Below are positions 30,541-38,390 of a stretch of DNA of 64,000 nt, in pieces. The position numbers and the translations under genes were made by a program. The DNA is from Barnesiella sp. An55 (GTDB lineage: Bacteria > Bacteroidota > Bacteroidia > Bacteroidales > Barnesiellaceae). The notes below the pieces were generated by a model. The model was given only the letters and a program-made list of their open reading frames with translations. It was not told the DNA's origin and did no database searches. How positions within the stretch are numbered: position 1 is the first letter of the stretch; each line of letters opens with the position of its first letter. Location of the stretch: NCBI RefSeq assembly GCF_002161555.1, contig NZ_NFHZ01000010.1, positions 1 to 64,000 on the forward strand, written 5' to 3'.

Positions 30541-31845
30541 CTATTGCTGGTTGAGCAGGAAGTGCTTGAAGGCATTGAAGCCCACAGGCATCAGGATACT
30601 CTGCTTCTCGCCCTGCATGAAATTGCGCAACTTCTCGGGCATGGCAATCGTCTCGCCCACGGCACCGCTCACGGTATCGAGGAACTTGGCTGGCGAAGCG
30701 GTACCCAGACAGATACCCGTCTCGCCCGGTTGCAGCCCATCGATCAAAGCCTGGTAACCGCAAGCCCCGTGGGGATCGAGCAGGTACTTCTCGCGATGGA
30801 AGGTATCGTGCAACGTGCGACGAATCTCGTCGTCGGTATAGCTTATACCGCTGATATCGGCACAGATAGCCTCGTGTGAATGGCCATACAAGTCGAGTAT
30901 GCGGGCAAAGTTGCTGGGGTCGCCCACATCCATGGCATTGGCAATGGTGGCAATCGAGGGCCGCGGGGTATAGACTCCCGTGCGCAGGTATTGCAGAAAG
31001 ACATCGTTGCGGTTGTTGGCGGCAATGAAACGTTTCACGGGCAGCCCCATGCGCTTGGCAATAAGCCCGGCCGTGAGGTTACCGAAGTTGCCGCTGGGCA
31101 CACTGAATACCACCTGCTCGGGATGCTCGACCATACCGCACAACTGAGCATAGGCATAGAAATAGTAGAAAGTCTGGGGCAGGAAACGGGCCACATTGAT
31201 CGAGTTGGCCGAGGTGAGGTAAAGCTTCTCATTCAGCTCGGGGTCCATAAAGGCACTCTTGACCAACGCCTGGCAATCGTCAAAAGTACCGCTCACCTCC
31301 AGGGCCGTGATGTTGTGCCCCAGCGTGGTAAACTGTTTCTCCTGTATCTCGCTCACCTTACCCTGCGGATAGAGCACAAAGACCTTCACGCCGGGCACGT
31401 CGAGGAAACCGTTGGCCACGGCACTGCCGGTATCGCCCGAGGTAGCTACCAGCACATTGACCTGGCGGGTCTCCTGCCGGTTGAAGTAGGCAAGCAACCG
31501 GGCCATGAAGCGGGCACCCACATCCTTGAAGGCCATCGTGGGCCCGTGGAACAGTTCCAGACAATACCGGTTGTCGGCCACCTGCACCAGAGGAATATCA
31601 AAGTTGAGGGCATCGTAAACGATATCCTTCAACTTGTCGGCCTCGACATCCTCGCCAAAGAAGGCCTCGGCCACTACGAAAGAGATTTCGCGCAGGGTCA
31701 TCTCCTTCATATTCTGGTAAAAAGCCGGCGGAAACCGGCGAATCACCTCGGGCATAAAGAGCCCCTTATCCGACGCCAATCCCCTCACCACTGCATCGTG
31801 GAGCGAGACCGGCGAAGTTTTTTTGTTCGTACTGTAATATAGCAT
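30541..31845 (-). CDS. thrC: Threonine synthase
   Basis: A 434-residue fold-type II PLP enzyme converting O-phosphohomoserine to threonine. It begins MLYYSTNKKTSPVSLHDAVVRGLASDKGLFMPE, typical of the E. coli/yeast-type synthase, and has the PLP lysine in HGPTMAFKDVGARFM (about 109) and the phosphate loop VATSGDTGSAVANG. It is separated from the homoserine kinase gene by a methyltransferase on the other strand and has its own -7 box (TACCTTTG on minus, 31925-31918), so it must be transcribed apart from thrA. Neighbouring operons of this kind in Bacteroides are contiguous. Confidence 0.94.
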   Translation of the reverse strand: MLYYSTNKKTSPVSLHDAVVRGLASDKGLFMPEVIRRFPPAFYQNMKEMTLREISFVVAEAFFGEDVEADKLKDIVYDALNFDIPLVQVADNRYCLELFHGPTMAFKDVGARFMARLLAYFNRQETRQVNVLVATSGDTGSAVANGFLDVPGVKVFVLYPQGKVSEIQEKQFTTLGHNITALEVSGTFDDCQALVKSAFMDPELNEKLYLTSANSINVARFLPQTFYYFYAYAQLCGMVEHPEQVVFSVPSGNFGNLTAGLIAKRMGLPVKRFIAANNRNDVFLQYLRTGVYTPRPSIATIANAMDVGDPSNFARILDLYGHSHEAICADISGISYTDDEIRRTLHDTFHREKYLLDPHGACGYQALIDGLQPGETGICLGTASPAKFLDTVSGAVGETIAMPEKLRNFMQGEKQSILMPVGFNAFKHFLLNQQ

Positions 31846-32118: not shown

Positions 32119-32961
32119 ATGAATCTACTGCGAAAAATCTATTATGCACTATCCCCTCAAATGCGCTTTTTGGCCCGGCGCATATGCTATCTGCCCATAG
32201 ACTGCTTCGATGGCATTACCGGTAAAAGAGACCGGCTCACTCCACCCAAAGGACTGATATTCATCGGATCGGGCGATTTCCGCGAACAGGGAGAACGACT
32301 GCTCGACCTCTTGCAACAGTATGGATCTATCACTCCTCAAAGTCATATTCTCGATGTGGGTTGCGGCATTGGACGATTGGCAGTGCCACTCACCCGCTTT
32401 CTCGACAGCAAGGGCCGGTACGACGGTTTCGATATCGTAAAAAAAGGTATCGACTGGTGCAACAAGCACATTGCCCCCAACTATCCCAATTTCCACTTTC
32501 TGCACGTTGACCTGAAAAACGACCTGTACAATCTGGATACCGAGCAGCAAGCCAGCCAGTTTATCTTTCCCTATCCCGATAACACCTACGACTGCGTCGT
32601 GCTCACTTCGGTATTCACCCACATGCTTCCCGCCGATGTCAACAATTATCTCGCTCAGATTGAAAGAGTGCTAACCCCTGGAGGCAAGTGTGTCGCCACC
32701 TTCTTCCTCACCAACGATATCATCAAGCAACAGATGAAGGACGGGAAATCCTACTTCAATTTTTCCCATCAGCATGAGGGATATGCGTTGCTCGACGAGA
32801 AAGTGCGAGAGGCCAACATCGCCTTCGACGAAACCTTTCTCAAACAGATGATTACAGACAACCATTTGCACTTGAGCGGTATCTACTACGGCAGCTGGTC
32901 GAGAACAGTAGAGACTTCGCCCGACTTTCAGGATCTGCTGGTCATCGAGAAGACCGTTTAG
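32119..32961 (+). CDS. SAM-dependent class I methyltransferase, substrate unknown
   Basis: A 280-residue methyltransferase. SAM motif I is ILDVGCGIGRLAVPL (about 78-92), the acidic motif II is YDGFDIVKKGI, and the post-motif segments YDCVVLTSVFTHMLP and RVLTPGGKCVATFFL give the usual Rossmann pattern. An N-terminal basic segment (LRKIYYALSPQMRFLARRICYLP) resembles membrane-surface or glycan-linked methyltransferases. The gene has its own promoter and terminator and sits, in reverse orientation, between thrC and the homoserine kinase gene; its DNA is more AT-rich than both neighbours. It looks like an inserted cassette. The substrate could be a sugar, lipid or small metabolite. Confidence 0.82.
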   Translation: MNLLRKIYYALSPQMRFLARRICYLPIDCFDGITGKRDRLTPPKGLIFIGSGDFREQGERLLDLLQQYGSITPQSHILDVGCGIGRLAVPLTRFLDSKGRYDGFDIVKKGIDWCNKHIAPNYPNFHFLHVDLKNDLYNLDTEQQASQFIFPYPDNTYDCVVLTSVFTHMLPADVNNYLAQIERVLTPGGKCVATFFLTNDIIKQQMKDGKSYFNFSHQHEGYALLDEKVREANIAFDETFLKQMITDNHLHLSGIYYGSWSRTVETSPDFQDLLVIEKTV

Positions 32962-33088: not shown

Positions 33089-34312
33089 CTACTCTCCTGA
33101 ACCGGGCCCCGCAAAAAAGGCTCGGATAAAGGCATCGCCCGACAACGTGCCATAATAGCCATCAGCAACGCTGTCCTCGTCATATACCTGCACGGCATCG
33201 GGAGTTTCACCGGGTTTATAGATCACAAACGGCACGGGAGCCGCCGTGTGGGTGCGCACCCGACAGGGCGTGGGGTGGTCGGGCAAGAGAGCGATAGCCA
33301 CCGGCTCGTCCATGTGGGCGACCGCTTCGATAAGGGGCTGCAACACCCGATGGTCGAGATATTCGACCGTGCGGAGCTTCAGCTCTACATCGCCTTCATG
33401 GCCCGCCTCGTCACTGGCCTCGATATGCAAATACACAAAATCATGTGTCGATAGTGCATCGATTGCAGCCTGAACCTTTCCCTCATAATTGGTATTGTAA
33501 AGTCCGGTCGCTCCCTCAACCTCGATTGGTTGCAAACCGGCATAGACGCCGATACCCCGAATGAGATCGACCGCCGAGATAACCACTCCACTGTGTATGC
33601 CGTAGCGCTGGGCCAGAGTCTCCATGCTGGGCTTGTAGCCCGGCGACCAGGGCCAGATGCTGTTGGCCGGGTCTTTGCCCTCGGCCACACGCCTCAAGTT
33701 CACGGGGTGCGAGGGCAGAATCTGTTGCGAGCGCACGATGAGGTCGTTCAGCCGGTCGGCCGTAGCAGCTGCCTCGGCCACGAGCGGTCGCACCATCACG
33801 TCGCGGAAGGGGGTACCGGGCACATCGTGCGGCGGGGTACAATCGACCCGCTTGTCGCCCCCCTTGAGTTTGAGCAGATGGCGATACGATACCCCCCGGT
33901 AGAAATTGGCATCGCCGCCTCCCAACTCCTGTTGCAGGAAGTCGATGAGCTCGGCCGCCTCGGCCGTGGAGATATGACCTGCCGAATGGTTCTTGATGAG
34001 GCTGTTCTCGATGCACACGAGGTTACAGCGCATGGCCATCTCGCCCGGCTCGATATCGATTCCCATACTGGCGGCCTCGAGCGAGCCCCGCCCTTCGAAC
34101 ACCCGGTCGAGGTCATATCCCAGTACCGCCAGATTGGCAATTTCGCTCCCGGGGTGATACCCGTCGGGCACCGTCTTGAGGCGGCCGCAACGTCCATGCG
34201 CAGCCAGCCAGTCCATGGCTGGCGTATGGGCCGCCTGCAAAGGAGTGCGTCCACCCAGTTGTTCTATGGGCTCATCGGCCATACCGTCGCCCAGTACAAT
34301 GATATGTTTCAT
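33089..34312 (-). CDS. ApgM-like phosphatase-superfamily protein, likely homoserine kinase
   Basis: A 407-residue alkaline-phosphatase superfamily protein of the archaeal-type cofactor-independent phosphoglycerate mutase group: N-terminal metal site LGDGMADEPIEQLGGRTPL, the nucleophile region PGSEIANLAVLGYD (Ser about 56), and C-terminal LLPDHPTPCRVRTHT and PVPFVIYKPG. In Bacteroidetes this protein stands where thrB should be and is the predicted non-orthologous homoserine kinase, feeding threonine synthase. The gap of 15 bases to thrA supports that. No GHMP-type thrB is seen in the window. A phosphoglycerate mutase role cannot be excluded from sequence alone. Confidence 0.85.
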   Translation of the reverse strand: MKHIIVLGDGMADEPIEQLGGRTPLQAAHTPAMDWLAAHGRCGRLKTVPDGYHPGSEIANLAVLGYDLDRVFEGRGSLEAASMGIDIEPGEMAMRCNLVCIENSLIKNHSAGHISTAEAAELIDFLQQELGGGDANFYRGVSYRHLLKLKGGDKRVDCTPPHDVPGTPFRDVMVRPLVAEAAATADRLNDLIVRSQQILPSHPVNLRRVAEGKDPANSIWPWSPGYKPSMETLAQRYGIHSGVVISAVDLIRGIGVYAGLQPIEVEGATGLYNTNYEGKVQAAIDALSTHDFVYLHIEASDEAGHEGDVELKLRTVEYLDHRVLQPLIEAVAHMDEPVAIALLPDHPTPCRVRTHTAAPVPFVIYKPGETPDAVQVYDEDSVADGYYGTLSGDAFIRAFFAGPGSGE

Positions 34313-34327
34313 AACAAAAGTCGTTTA

Positions 34328-36763
34328 TTATCGAATGTTGGCAATACCTATAATATCGGCAAAGACACCGGCCGCCGTCACTTCGGCCCCGGCCCCGTAG
34401 CCCTTGATCACCATGGGATACTCGCGGTAGCGCTCGGTAGTAATCGAGATCACGTTGTTGCTCCCCTCGAGGTGATAGAAGGGGTGGGCCGACTCGACCT
34501 CGTGCAAACCCACTTCGACCTCGCCGTGGTCGAGTGTGGCAACAAAACGCAACACCTTGCCCCGGGATGCCACTTGCCGGCGATACGCCTCGAACTGCGC
34601 ATCGTAGTCGGGAATCGACCGCCAAAAGTCGTCGAGGCTCCCCGTGAAATACGACTCGGGGATAAAGAGATGTCGCTTCACATCGCTCTGCTCCACCCGA
34701 TAACCCGCCTCGCGAGCCAGAATCACCAGCTTGCGTATCACATCCTGGCCGCACAGGTCGATGCGGGGGTCGGGCTCGCTGTAACCCGCCTCCTGCGCCA
34801 TACGCACAGCCCGGCTCAGCGGCACCTCGGCACTCACCACGTTGAAGATATAGTTGAGCGTACCCGAAACAACCGCCTCGATCTTGAGTATCTTGTCACC
34901 ACTGTTGATGAGGTTGTTGATGGTATTGATAATCGGGAGTCCCGCGCCCACATTGGTCTCGAAGAGGAACTTCACGTCGCGCTTGCGGGCCGTCTGCTTC
35001 AGTTCCCGATACAGGTCATACGACCCCGAAGCCGCAATCTTGTTCGATGCCACCACCGACACGTTGTGGTCGAGCAGCGACCGGTACAGCGCAGCAATAT
35101 CGGCACTGGCGGTACAATCGACAAAAACCGAGTTGAAGATATTCATCTCGACAATCTCGTCTTTGATTTTCTGGGGCGAAGCCGGCTCGCCGCAACGGTC
35201 GAGCAGGTCGAGACTCTGCTCGATATCGATACCCTCGCGGTCGAAGAGACACTTGCGCGAATTGGCAATACCCACCAACCGCAACTGCAAAGCCTTGGTC
35301 TCGAGCAACCGCTGCTGTTGCTTGCAAATCTGGCGCAGCAAGTCGCGCCCCACGGTTCCCACCCCGGCAATAAAAAGGTTGAGCACCTGGGTCTCGGAGA
35401 GGAAGAACGAGTCGTGTATCACATTGAGCGCCTTGCGCAGGCTGTCGCGGGCAATGACAAACGAGATATTGGTCTCCGACGCCCCCTGGGCACAGGCAAT
35501 CACGTTGATACCGTTACGGCCCAACACATTGAACAGCTTGCCCGCAATGCCGGGGGTATGCTTCATGTTCTCGCCCACGATGGCCACGGTAGCCAACTCC
35601 TTCTCGGCCTCGATACCGCTGATTTCGCCTACGGCAATCTCCTCCTTGAACTCCTCGCGCAGCACCCGCACGGCCAAATCGGCATCGGCGTTGCGCACGG
35701 CAAACGTCGTATTGTTCTCCGACGAAGCCTGCGACACAAGAAACACACTGATTCCCGACTGGGCCAGCCGATGGAATATGCGCGAATTGATACCAATCAC
35801 CCCCACCATGCCCATACCCGAGAGGGTGATGAGGCAGGTATCGTTGATCGACGAGATACCCTTGATGGCCTTCCCTTCGATATGGGAATGGTCGGCCGAG
35901 ATGAGCGTACCGGGAGCCGACGGATTGAACGTGTTCTTGATTAAGATAGGAATATTCTTGTGAAACACCGGATAAATCGTGGGCGGATAAATGACCTTCG
36001 CTCCGAAGTTACACAGCTCCATCGCCTCGGTAAACGACAAATGCTCAATCACATAGGCCGTATTGATTACCCGTGGGTCGGCCGTCATGAAGCCATCGAC
36101 ATCGGTCCAAATCTCGAGCTGCGAAGCCCCGAGCGCCGTAGCCAGAATGGCCGCCGTGTAGTCCGACCCGCCCCGCCCCAGGTTGGTCACGTCGCCCGTC
36201 GCGCGGTCCGAAGCGATAAAGCCCGGAACCACCGCCACCCGGGGTAGCTCGGCAAAATAACGTTTCACCAGTTTGTTGGTCTCATCGAAATCGACAATGT
36301 GTTTGCCATATTGGCGACGGGTCTTGATAAAGAAGCGGGCATCGTAGTGAACCGCCCCCTCGATAACCCTACTCACAATGAGCGACGAAAGGCGCTCGCC
36401 ATAACTCACAATCGTGTCGAGCGTCTTGGTCGAGAGATCTTTGATGAGCGATACCCCCTTGAAGATATTGCCCAACTCGCCCAGCAGTGGATCGATGAGC
36501 GCCAGCAGTTCTGCCTGCCGCGACACCTCGACGGCTTGACTCACCATCGCCTTGTGACGCTCGACAATAGCCCCGAAGAGACTCTCGTACCCATCGCCGC
36601 CCTCCACGGCCACTCGGGCCGTTTCGATAAGCCGGTCGGTGATTCCGCCCAAAGCCGATACCACAACAATGACCGGTTCGTGACAACGTTCTACTATCTG
36701 TTTGACACTCGACATGCTCTCGACCGAACCTACCGAAGTGCCTCCGAATTTCAATACTTTCAT
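34328..36763 (-). CDS. thrA: Bifunctional aspartokinase/homoserine dehydrogenase I
   Basis: An 811-residue fusion. Aspartokinase spans about 1-290 (MKVLKFGGTSVGSVESM, FVLNRGGSDYTAA-type GRGGSDYTAAILATALGA), two ACT domains about 310-455 that bind feedback inhibitors such as threonine, and homoserine dehydrogenase from about 465 (NLFIAGVGTVGRDLLRQI for NAD(P), FETNVGAGLPIINTINNL). It catalyses the first and third steps from aspartate to threonine and methionine. It heads a two-gene unit with the homoserine kinase. Upstream lies a leader ORF with threonine codons and terminator hairpins, so transcription attenuation by threonine is likely in addition to allostery. Confidence 0.95.
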   Translation of the reverse strand: MKVLKFGGTSVGSVESMSSVKQIVERCHEPVIVVVSALGGITDRLIETARVAVEGGDGYESLFGAIVERHKAMVSQAVEVSRQAELLALIDPLLGELGNIFKGVSLIKDLSTKTLDTIVSYGERLSSLIVSRVIEGAVHYDARFFIKTRRQYGKHIVDFDETNKLVKRYFAELPRVAVVPGFIASDRATGDVTNLGRGGSDYTAAILATALGASQLEIWTDVDGFMTADPRVINTAYVIEHLSFTEAMELCNFGAKVIYPPTIYPVFHKNIPILIKNTFNPSAPGTLISADHSHIEGKAIKGISSINDTCLITLSGMGMVGVIGINSRIFHRLAQSGISVFLVSQASSENNTTFAVRNADADLAVRVLREEFKEEIAVGEISGIEAEKELATVAIVGENMKHTPGIAGKLFNVLGRNGINVIACAQGASETNISFVIARDSLRKALNVIHDSFFLSETQVLNLFIAGVGTVGRDLLRQICKQQQRLLETKALQLRLVGIANSRKCLFDREGIDIEQSLDLLDRCGEPASPQKIKDEIVEMNIFNSVFVDCTASADIAALYRSLLDHNVSVVASNKIAASGSYDLYRELKQTARKRDVKFLFETNVGAGLPIINTINNLINSGDKILKIEAVVSGTLNYIFNVVSAEVPLSRAVRMAQEAGYSEPDPRIDLCGQDVIRKLVILAREAGYRVEQSDVKRHLFIPESYFTGSLDDFWRSIPDYDAQFEAYRRQVASRGKVLRFVATLDHGEVEVGLHEVESAHPFYHLEGSNNVISITTERYREYPMVIKGYGAGAEVTAAGVFADIIGIANIR

Positions 36764-36841
36764 ATCTGCACTATTCTATCGGCACAGCCTCGCCCCCCTC
36801 CTTGGGAAAAGCGAGCTACACCCGTTCAAAAAAATTGGTTG

Positions 36842-36866
36842 AAAAAAACGATATCGAAACGATATC
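36842..36866 (-). terminator. Second terminator-like hairpin in the thrA leader
   Basis: On minus, GATATCG-TTT-CGATATC is a perfect 7-base-pair hairpin followed by G and seven T. It lies 16 bases after the U-tract of the first terminator, making a tandem pair before thrA. Confidence 0.6.
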
Positions 36867-36875
36867 TATCGAAAC

Positions 36876-36917
36876 AAAAAAGCAACATCCTCCCCCCTAA
36901 GGGGTGGTACCTGTTGC
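36876..36917 (-). terminator. Attenuator terminator of the thrA operon
   Basis: On minus, GCAACA at 36917-36912 pairs with TGTTGC at 36887-36882, with CCCC/GGGG pairing inside around a TTA loop, then six T. The 5' arm contains the last Thr codons of the leader ORF and the loop holds its TAG stop. A ribosome stalled on those codons would itself prevent the hairpin from forming. Confidence 0.8.
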
Positions 36918-36959
36918 AGTCATGCAATTACCGAGTAGTATATGCAGTAGTTCGATCAT
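36897..36959 (-). CDS. Threonine-rich leader peptide of the thrA operon
   Basis: A 20-residue ORF, ATG at 36959 and TAG at 36899-36897. Its last eight residues are MTATGTTP, with four Thr codons (ACT, ACA, ACC, ACC), and the first part has two Ile codons (ATC, ATA), as the thrL leader of E. coli carries both. The ATG at residue 13 could also be the real start. It lies about 80 bases after the predicted RNA start, overlaps the 5' arm of the terminator, and is followed by thrA about 135 bases downstream. That combination is hard to explain by chance. I propose ribosome-mediated attenuation by charged tRNA-Thr (perhaps tRNA-Ile). Confidence 0.72.
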   Translation of the reverse strand: MIELLHILLGNCMTATGTTP

Positions 36960-37045
36960 GGTGTTGTCTCTTTCGGGGGCCTACCCTCGGCTGCCACCGA
37001 CAGCGAGAGGTCTGCCAGATATTATTAAAAACATCTCTTGTTTTG

Positions 37046-37078
37046 CAAAAGTAATCTTTTTTTTATTTTTCCAGCAGA
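37046..37078 (-). promoter_or_regulatory. Promoter of the thrA leader and operon
   Basis: On minus: TCTG (37078-37075), a 21-base A-rich spacer, then TACTTTTG (37053-37046). The -7 is a full match, the -33 has one mismatch. Predicted RNA start near 37039. Confidence 0.65.
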
Positions 37079-37319: not shown

Positions 37320-37343
37320 CCCCACTTTGTAAAACCATTGTGT

Positions 37344-38390
37344 ATGTCTGAAAATATAACATCGGTTCTTATCATCTACACCGGTGGCACCATCGGAATG
37401 GTAGAGAACAGCAAGACGGGAAGTCTCGAACCGTTCAACTTTCACCATCTCCTCGACAAAGTACCCGAGTTGCGACAACTCGGATTCTCCATCTCGACCG
37501 TGCAATTCGAACCCCCCATCGATTCCTCCGAAATAGAACCCGACTCGTGGGTAAAACTCGTACACATCATTGCCGACAACTACGACCTGTTCGACGGCTT
37601 TGTCGTGCTGCACGGTACCGACACAATGGCCTACACGGCTTCGGCCCTGAGCTTCATGCTCGAGAACCTCAACAAGCCCGTTATCCTCACCGGCTCGCAA
37701 CTGCCCATCGGCATGCTGCGCACCGACGGTAAAGAGAATCTTATCACCGCCATCGAAATCGCCGCCGCCAAAAACAGTGCCGGCGAACCACTGGTACCCG
37801 AGGTGTGCATCTTCTTCGGCAACCACCTGTTGCGCGGCAACCGCACCACCAAAATCAGCGCCGAGAGTTTCAATGCCTTCGTATCGACCAACTACCCGCC
37901 GCTGGCCCAGGTAGGCGTGCACATCCACTACGACGAGAACCAGATCGCCCGCGTCACCCACAAACCGCTGCGCCCCCACTACCTGATGAATACCAACATC
38001 GTGGTACTGAAACTATTCCCCGGCATCTCGGAACAGACCGTGCGCTCCATCCTGGAGATTCCGGGACTGAAAGGGGTGGTGCTCGAAACCTTCGGCTCGG
38101 GCAATGCTCCGGTCAAGGAGTGGTTCCTCAACCTGCTCAAAGAGGCGGTGGACAAAGGCATCGTCATTGTCAATGTGAGCCAGTGCATGGGCGGCACCGT
38201 GCAGATGAGCCGCTACGGCACGGGCAGCAAGCTCGAGAACGCCGGCGTGGTGAGCGGATACGACAGCACGACCGAGGCCGTACTCACCAAACTCATGTTC
38301 CTCTTCGGGCACAAGTACCCCTCGAAAGTGGTCAAGGAGAACATGAACTGTTCGCTCAGCGGCGAGATTACCCTCACGCTGCACAACTAA
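37344..38390 (+). CDS. ansA: L-asparaginase, type I
   Basis: A 348-residue cytoplasmic asparaginase: asparagine to aspartate and ammonia. Catalytic threonines are in IIYTGGTIGMVEN (about 12-24) and VLHGTDTMAYTASAL (about 90-104), with the following SQLPIGMLRTDGKENL. There is no signal peptide, and length matches the AnsA type. The MSENITSVLI start at 37344 is the family norm; the earlier in-frame ATG would add a 41-residue non-conserved tail covering the structured leader. Divergent from thrA, so aspartate supply and aspartate use share one intergenic region. Confidence 0.92.
   Translation: MSENITSVLIIYTGGTIGMVENSKTGSLEPFNFHHLLDKVPELRQLGFSISTVQFEPPIDSSEIEPDSWVKLVHIIADNYDLFDGFVVLHGTDTMAYTASALSFMLENLNKPVILTGSQLPIGMLRTDGKENLITAIEIAAAKNSAGEPLVPEVCIFFGNHLLRGNRTTKISAESFNAFVSTNYPPLAQVGVHIHYDENQIARVTHKPLRPHYLMNTNIVVLKLFPGISEQTVRSILEIPGLKGVVLETFGSGNAPVKEWFLNLLKEAVDKGIVIVNVSQCMGGTVQMSRYGTGSKLENAGVVSGYDSTTEAVLTKLMFLFGHKYPSKVVKENMNCSLSGEITLTLHN

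Follow-up and report, generated by a model that had tools for sequence, protein, structure and literature searches.

In E. coli, a short leader ORF rich in threonine codons, thrL, precedes a threonine (thr) operon that is headed by a fused aspartokinase/homoserine dehydrogenase gene. Both features recur at the locus described here, which lies in a stretch of 64,000 nucleotides from Barnesiella sp. An55 that was analysed as a whole and is called the window, but the layout is different. In thrL, the threonine codons (positions 106-138 of the locus) and the stop codon (154-156) precede the terminator arm at 181, whereas the last threonine codons of the window leader lie within the terminator arm and its stop codon lies in the loop; there are four threonine codons as compared with eight. 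The window leader gave no match at the gathering score to the Rfam model for threonine operon leaders, which we take to be RF00506. Neither the window nor any of 10 related loci gave a match to an Rfam 15 family at the gathering score, and at E ≤5 the window leader had three sub-threshold matches only, all to unrelated families.

Other described systems share part of the design. The trp leaders of Bacteroidetes (bacteroid-trp RNA) are likewise leader-type control elements of an amino-acid operon in the same phylum, but for another amino acid. In pyrBI attenuation, too, the ribosome itself stops a terminator from closing, but UTP is sensed and amino-acid control codons are not known to be involved. 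Prevention of terminator hairpins by ribosomes is described in the accessible portion of PMC5021804. The his leader peptide found before hisS/hisZ in bacilli, also outside the Proteobacteria, has a codon-rich leader ORF and a 5′ terminator, and differs in amino acid and phylum; neither 'Bacteroid' nor 'threonine' occurs in the main text of that paper (PMC2965389). Leader-like small ORFs in general have been treated in B. theta, with no mention of threonine in the accessible part of the article (PMC7366714), and the word is also absent from the accessible text of PMC8632094 and PMC4833913. A threonine attenuator in Bacteroidetes was found in none of the literature matches listed, in a search outside of which most subscription papers lay, and none of the open-literature matches listed described control of thr genes in gut Bacteroidales. 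The locus is best read as an attenuator of Bacteroidales with a layout unlike that of E. coli thrL, its general kind being already known.

More specifically, the element is probably (at a probability of about 0.8) an attenuator of thr operon transcription that responds to threonine and is mediated by the ribosome. The sequences show directly its parts, how they are conserved, the bias towards Thr and the link with threonine genes, and computation supports a co-adapted helix; leader translation, termination, the response to threonine and the order of these events are what we infer. The parts and genes are as follows:

37053-37046, minus strand: promoter-like -7 element TACTTTTG, from the sequence and kept in 9/9 genus sequences
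36975-36960, minus strand: segment A′ (CGAAAGAGACAACACC), antiterminator candidate abutting the leader start, from folds and a double change in a sister species
36959-36897, minus strand: leader ORF, 20 codons plus stop, MIELLHILLGNCMTATGTTP*, from the sequence, with Thr-rich counterparts in relatives
36889..36907, minus strand: core hairpin H1, CCaCCCC-TTA-GGGGGGaGG, containing the last Thr codons and the stop codon
36876..36917, minus strand: putative intrinsic terminator, a local GCAACA/TGTTGC stem around H1 followed by T6, from sequence and folds
36866-36850, minus strand: second hairpin GATATCG-TTT-CGATATC, with T7 at 36848-36842, possible second terminator, from a terminator scan
36781..36823, minus strand: third hairpin near the thrA start, found by eye
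34328..36763, minus strand: thrA, bifunctional aspartate kinase/homoserine dehydrogenase (NCBIfam NF006959, 1029.2 bits, cut-off 726)
33089..34312, minus strand: apgM-type gene, proposed homoserine kinase, thrB equivalent (TIGR02535, 551.8 bits, cut-off 446.3)
30541..31845, minus strand: thrC, threonine synthase (TIGR00260, 295.8 bits, cut-off 167.1)

We take TACTTTTG to be a -7 element of the TAnnTTTG type, as in Bacteroides-type promoters. Between this promoter-like element and the operon lies the short ORF, with the Thr codons ACT, ACA, ACC, and ACC within its last eight and Ile at codon positions 2 and 7. The terminator-like sequence GCAACAggtaCCaCCCC-TTA-GGGGGGaGGaTGTTGC occupies 36917-36882 of the minus strand and is followed by T6 at 36881-36876. 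Its 5′ arm coincides with the last Thr codons and its loop with the stop codon, and the local hairpin has a predicted energy of -16.0 kcal/mol, as compared with -5.3 kcal/mol for the second hairpin. A simple terminator scan of the window reports the second hairpin and not the first, perhaps because of the internal loops of the latter. At the place of the second hairpin, several genus sequences have a different hairpin by eye, and a T-run is present in some only. The stem of the third hairpin varies among genus members, seemingly in a concerted manner by eye. All of these elements up to T7, which the earlier note had read from the minus strand (promoter, 20-codon ORF, Thr-codon terminator with the stop in its loop, second hairpin), are present at the coordinates that it gave. 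Its further suggestion of a pairing between a GGTGG loop and CCACC of the terminator fared less well, as GGTGG was absent by eye from the other eight genus sequences. In the window, the sequence ACCACCCCTTAGGGG has one occurrence when up to two mismatches are tolerated (0.10 expected). The 17-mer ACCACCCCTTAGGGGGG has a single, exact occurrence in the 3.03 Mb genome with up to two mismatches allowed, which proves little by itself since the backward control also matches once.

Threonine is the product of a branch of the aspartate pathway, here in bacteria that are abundant in the human gut. The apgM-type gene also scored above the cut-offs of NF003242 and TIGR00306, and phosphoglycerate mutase models score as well. 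A methyltransferase-like gene (32119-32961, plus strand) separates it from thrC, while the two genes adjoin in L241-L246. On the other side, a divergent type I asparaginase gene (37341-38390, plus strand) has its intergenic region in common with the thr leader.

In the proposed mechanism, the leader RNA contains a short ORF, and the last Thr codons of this ORF would themselves serve as the 5′ arm of an intrinsic terminator. With charged Thr-tRNA in good supply, the ribosome would reach the stop codon and depart, H1 and the adjoining stem would close beside the U-tract, and transcription would stop before thrA. When charged Thr-tRNA is scarce, the ribosome would halt on the Thr codons and cover the 5′ arm, so that no terminator would form and thrA would be transcribed. 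For the window, this would leave the 3′ arm free, and it may then pair with the segment that precedes the leader start and hold the terminator open. The earlier note had considered a separate antiterminator not strictly needed; a candidate for one does exist, namely the segment before the ATG when paired in this way with the 3′ arm of the terminator.

Conservation was analyzed in the genus and beyond. Promoter, Thr-containing leader, and H1 were all kept by eye in the nine genus sequences (the window and eight others). In eight of them, a T-run of at least 5 lies within a few bases 3′ of H1, the exception by eye being L089; by sequence, a putative intrinsic terminator stands between leader and first gene in the window and in 8/9 genus members. 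That four of the last eight leader codons specify Thr, as the earlier note had remarked, is true of the window and is not a fixed property, since genus leaders have 2-5 Thr in their last eight residues. One of the records, L006 (JAMPAQ010000001.1), is titled Pseudoflavonifractor; its thrA is 72% identical to that of the window, and it is probably a mislabelled metagenome bin.

For the wider survey, 154 distinct upstream regions were assembled from 80 named loci, 41 relatives, and an even sample of the order. Duplicates, regions shorter than 150 bases, and eight regions with an unclear start (L103, L106, L108, L109, L110, L115, L119, and L122) were left out before counting, as was L040 from the Bacteroidaceae type; L173 was retained despite a wrong position and scored as a miss. 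The detector required an ATG-started ORF of 8-45 codons entering a C3-5/G3-6 hairpin at whose edge lies a Thr codon. It matched 64 of the 154 regions as compared with 19 of 3080 dinucleotide shuffles. On the reverse strands it matched 9/154, and eight of these nine were in regions that also matched forward, as expected from the near-palindrome. Dropping the hairpin condition and asking for an ORF with at least four Thr in six codons gave 19/154 matches, as compared with 14/3080 shuffles and 1/154 reverse strands. One Thr-rich leader is nevertheless missed by the detector (L105, MKHQLHTIITITTTRPQTS).

Within the order sample, a fused ThrA reached the cut-off in 80 of 218 genomes, 77 were mapped, and 70 regions were usable and non-duplicate. 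Detector matches were found in 25 of these 70 regions and 16 of 39 families, and none in the remaining 45 regions and 23 families. The records fetched for Alistipes, Muribaculaceae, Cryptobacteroides, and Paludibacter also had no detector match. Where thrA and apgM lie apart in this sample, no leader was found before apgM (0/4: L259, L272, L273, and L275) or in the corresponding thrA regions, in a count that leaves out L260 (no usable start), G139, G169, and G079.

Adding 63 regions of the family f58, treated here as Bacteroidaceae because its upstream regions equal those of Bacteroides records (L055, L071, L074, and L079), brought the matches to 96/217. All but one were kept (L206, with one Thr, was dropped), giving a set of 95 leaders; examples of the peptides from relatives are MTLKRYYTYTLCNGVTATTTTP, MFRISFHITTTTTPWGVK, MMFWQLHITTTTTTTPAGV, and MNKYYQHTVTSMWTMTLRG. 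Thr makes up 24.4% of the codons 5′ of H1 in the leader frame, as compared with 6.3% and 4.1% in the other frames, and ACA, ACC, ACT, and ACG are all in use. A Thr codon precedes H1 in 94/95 leaders, although the detector partly selects for Thr, so that the shuffle comparison (19/3080) is the test. Enrichment and conservation of codons for the end product are features of the ORF. Ile accounts for 4.2% of leader residues as compared with 25.4% for Thr, and there is therefore no sign of Ile control. We also noted by eye a recurrent His codon in a CATA context, several codons before the leader end, in many leaders. The T content after H1 is in slight excess (5.41 of 8 positions, as compared with 5.00 in the control).

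The strongest single result comes from a covariance model built from 27 Bacteroides-type leaders (alignment A2) and run on 151 f58 genomes at E ≤0.01. It matched 44 genomes, once in each. The other 107 had no match, with strict filters (over 40 genomes) under which a miss is not proof of absence. In 38 of the 44, the match lies in the orientation of thrA, 54-211 nt upstream of it; 19 of these went into building the model and carry no weight alone, while the other 19, as well as the six matches elsewhere, are independent. In all six of the latter, which lie away from thrA, the next gene scored above the TIGR02535 cut-off (proposed homoserine kinase) and was followed by thrC, identified by TIGR00260 in four cases (L241, L242, L243, and L246) and by likeness in the other two (L244 and L245). 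The leaders are clearly rich in Thr in five of the six, MINNTLHIITTGTGTTTTLRG and MNEYYLHTTASRGSTTGTTGGYTRRCISTGTTLWG being examples; in L244, no leader that starts with ATG and has the set length was found by the script. Since these six matches precede the thrB-thrC pair where thrA lies elsewhere, the element tracks threonine genes and not one neighbour, even when the operon has another first gene. The comparison of thrA upstream regions called for in the earlier note thus supports its proposal of a leader-peptide Thr attenuator with the control codons inside the terminator: Thr codons and hairpin are kept in relatives, and model matches precede threonine genes only.

Folding was applied to the leader RNA. 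The region 37047-36842 has a lower fold energy than 200/200 shuffles (z -3.06). In its minimum-energy fold, the segment before the ATG pairs with the terminator 3′ arm and U-tract, the H1 core is kept, and the local terminator is absent; segment A′ is able to pair with 36890-36875 in this manner. When the window RNA was ended at the U-tract, the local terminator formed without a ribosome, and masking of the last Thr codons made the 3′ arm pair with the segment that precedes the ATG. When the U-tract was part of the fold, this far pairing appeared under all five ribosome masks, for which footprint sizes were assumed and loss of H1 is by construction and not a result. The mask at the stop codon was among them: a ribosome there covers the terminator too, with the same alternative fold, so the threonine-replete state would need quick release or a polymerase pause. 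A terminator located a few bases after a gene is almost fully repressed, according to the accessible portion of PMC4824070. Without a ribosome, H1 formed in eight of the nine genus sequences, the exception being L002, and masking of the last Thr codons gave the far pairing in three only (the window, L002, and L086), the 3′ arm of L089 having been misplaced by the script. In the sister species L002, a double change (CAACACC/GGATGTTG as compared with CAACGCC/GGACGTTG) keeps the core of the pairing between the segment before the ATG and the 3′ arm. RNAalifold applied to the genus leaders did not yield a clear common terminator fold.

Across the leader set, the leader start is able to pair with the segment right after H1. 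Own partners were compared with swapped ones, in permutation counts that are not true probabilities because the sequences are related. For 53 Bacteroidaceae-type leaders, own partners gave -8.92 kcal/mol and swapped partners -8.06 kcal/mol (0/1000 permutations; 3/1000 when each distinct 3′ segment was represented by a single row, n=30), with 22/1000 at -40..-4, 30/1000 at -75..-35, and 78/1000 at -110..-60. For the 42 other leaders, pairing of -75..-35 with +0..+20 gave -7.06 vs -6.02 kcal/mol (0/1000); the count was 103/1000 for -75..-4 with +0..+14 (113 with unique rows), 0/1000 for -75..-4 with +0..+20, 317/1000 at -40..-4, and 415/1000 at -110..-60. The helix between the leader start and the bases after the hairpin appears to be co-adapted. 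Pair counts in A2 lend it mild support: 71.4% of the outer-helix cells are paired and 10/500 shuffles reach the covariation score of the whole structure, in an alignment whose 3′ arm is misaligned by one base in some rows. As a separate candidate, a hairpin in the Bacteroides 5′ UTR with a 3′ arm able to pair with the leader start was seen by eye in several species; it was altered or absent in others and was set aside.

The long-range helix admits a variant of the attenuator with the opposite sign, in which this helix would be the terminator stem and the ORF its loop, so that a ribosome anywhere on the ORF would block termination. In Bacteroides-type leaders, the helix (e.g. TACTATCC/GGATAGTA) runs directly into TTTTGTGTTTC, and a competing local stem was not noticed by eye. 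The pairing in the window, by contrast, absorbs the U-tract and competes with a stable local hairpin, as an antiterminator would. We regard the variant as a serious contender, if one short of an even chance.

Leader forms differ between clades. The 53 Bacteroidaceae-type leaders were picked by the motif CT[AG]CG[TC]G after H1, which is present in 31 of the 32 f58 detector matches with at least two Thr (the exception is L224). In leaders of this type (e.g. L175 and L215), H1 is followed by a hairpin with a UACGU-type loop, GTGTTTC-TACGT-GATACAC, that overlaps a U-rich tract and often precedes a second hairpin such as GCTTACGGACGTAAGC by eye. While its loop and inner pair are conserved by the choice of motif, three outer pairs are formed in 53/53 leaders, a fourth in 37, and a fifth in 20, with some compensatory changes, including G-C/C-G and U-A exchanges at one outer pair. 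Parabacteroides-type leaders (L012, L020, L024, L029, L053, L120, and L121) keep the peptide around YYTWAL..TPWGV and have no U-run directly after H1; by eye, a later hairpin with a T-run is present in five of the seven. Possibly, the terminator of this type has moved off the Thr codons and the later hairpin and T-run may do the work.

Such leaders bear on a reading that we consider improbable, in which the leader senses the ribosome but acts on Rho-dependent termination, mRNA stability, or thrA translation, with H1 gated by the ribosome and not serving as a terminator. The Parabacteroides type and some other leaders indeed keep H1 and the Thr codons without a direct U-run, and more hairpins are present downstream; the T-run after H1 in 8/9 genus sequences and, by eye, the U-rich tract after the outer helix of Bacteroides leaders speak instead for termination.

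Parts of the peptide look conserved within clades, by eye YYxHT in Bacteroides and YYTWAL in the Parabacteroides type, which would fit a nascent leader peptide that stalled the ribosome in response to a small molecule, with codon starvation uninvolved. By eye, peptides of different clades resemble each other little except for Thr, and an RNA arm overlaps the early codons that are conserved, which leaves such peptide-dependent arrest very unlikely. An ordinary terminator crossed by a chance ORF is hardly credible: a C-rich arm by itself yields Thr or Pro codons in some frame, but Thr lies 5′ of H1 in nearly all leaders with all four of its codons used (in part through detector selection), shuffles seldom match, and model matches precede a relocated threonine operon.

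Returning to the ribosome-mediated threonine attenuator, a broader picture can be drawn tentatively, and taken jointly its components are rather unlikely all to hold. The leaders may form one family in which the leader start and the bases immediately beyond the leader end form a helix, with the ORF as the loop of the switch, the last Thr codons in the CCCC/GGGG hairpin, and, in Bacteroidaceae, the hairpin with a UACGU-type loop following. One fold would then read the position of the ribosome throughout the ORF, early stalls opening the outer helix and late stalls the inner hairpin. Many species would have no dedicated antiterminator, and the element would have moved between thrA and thrB-thrC operons. 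Such a family would be an undescribed regulatory RNA, with detector matches in 16 Bacteroidales families of the sample.

If the main reading is right, the logic of E. coli thrL would operate in the Bacteroidales in another layout, with no detected relation to the Rfam model of thrL, and the leader would provide a simple RNA switch well suited to studying the coupling of transcription and translation in the phylum of the Bacteroidales.
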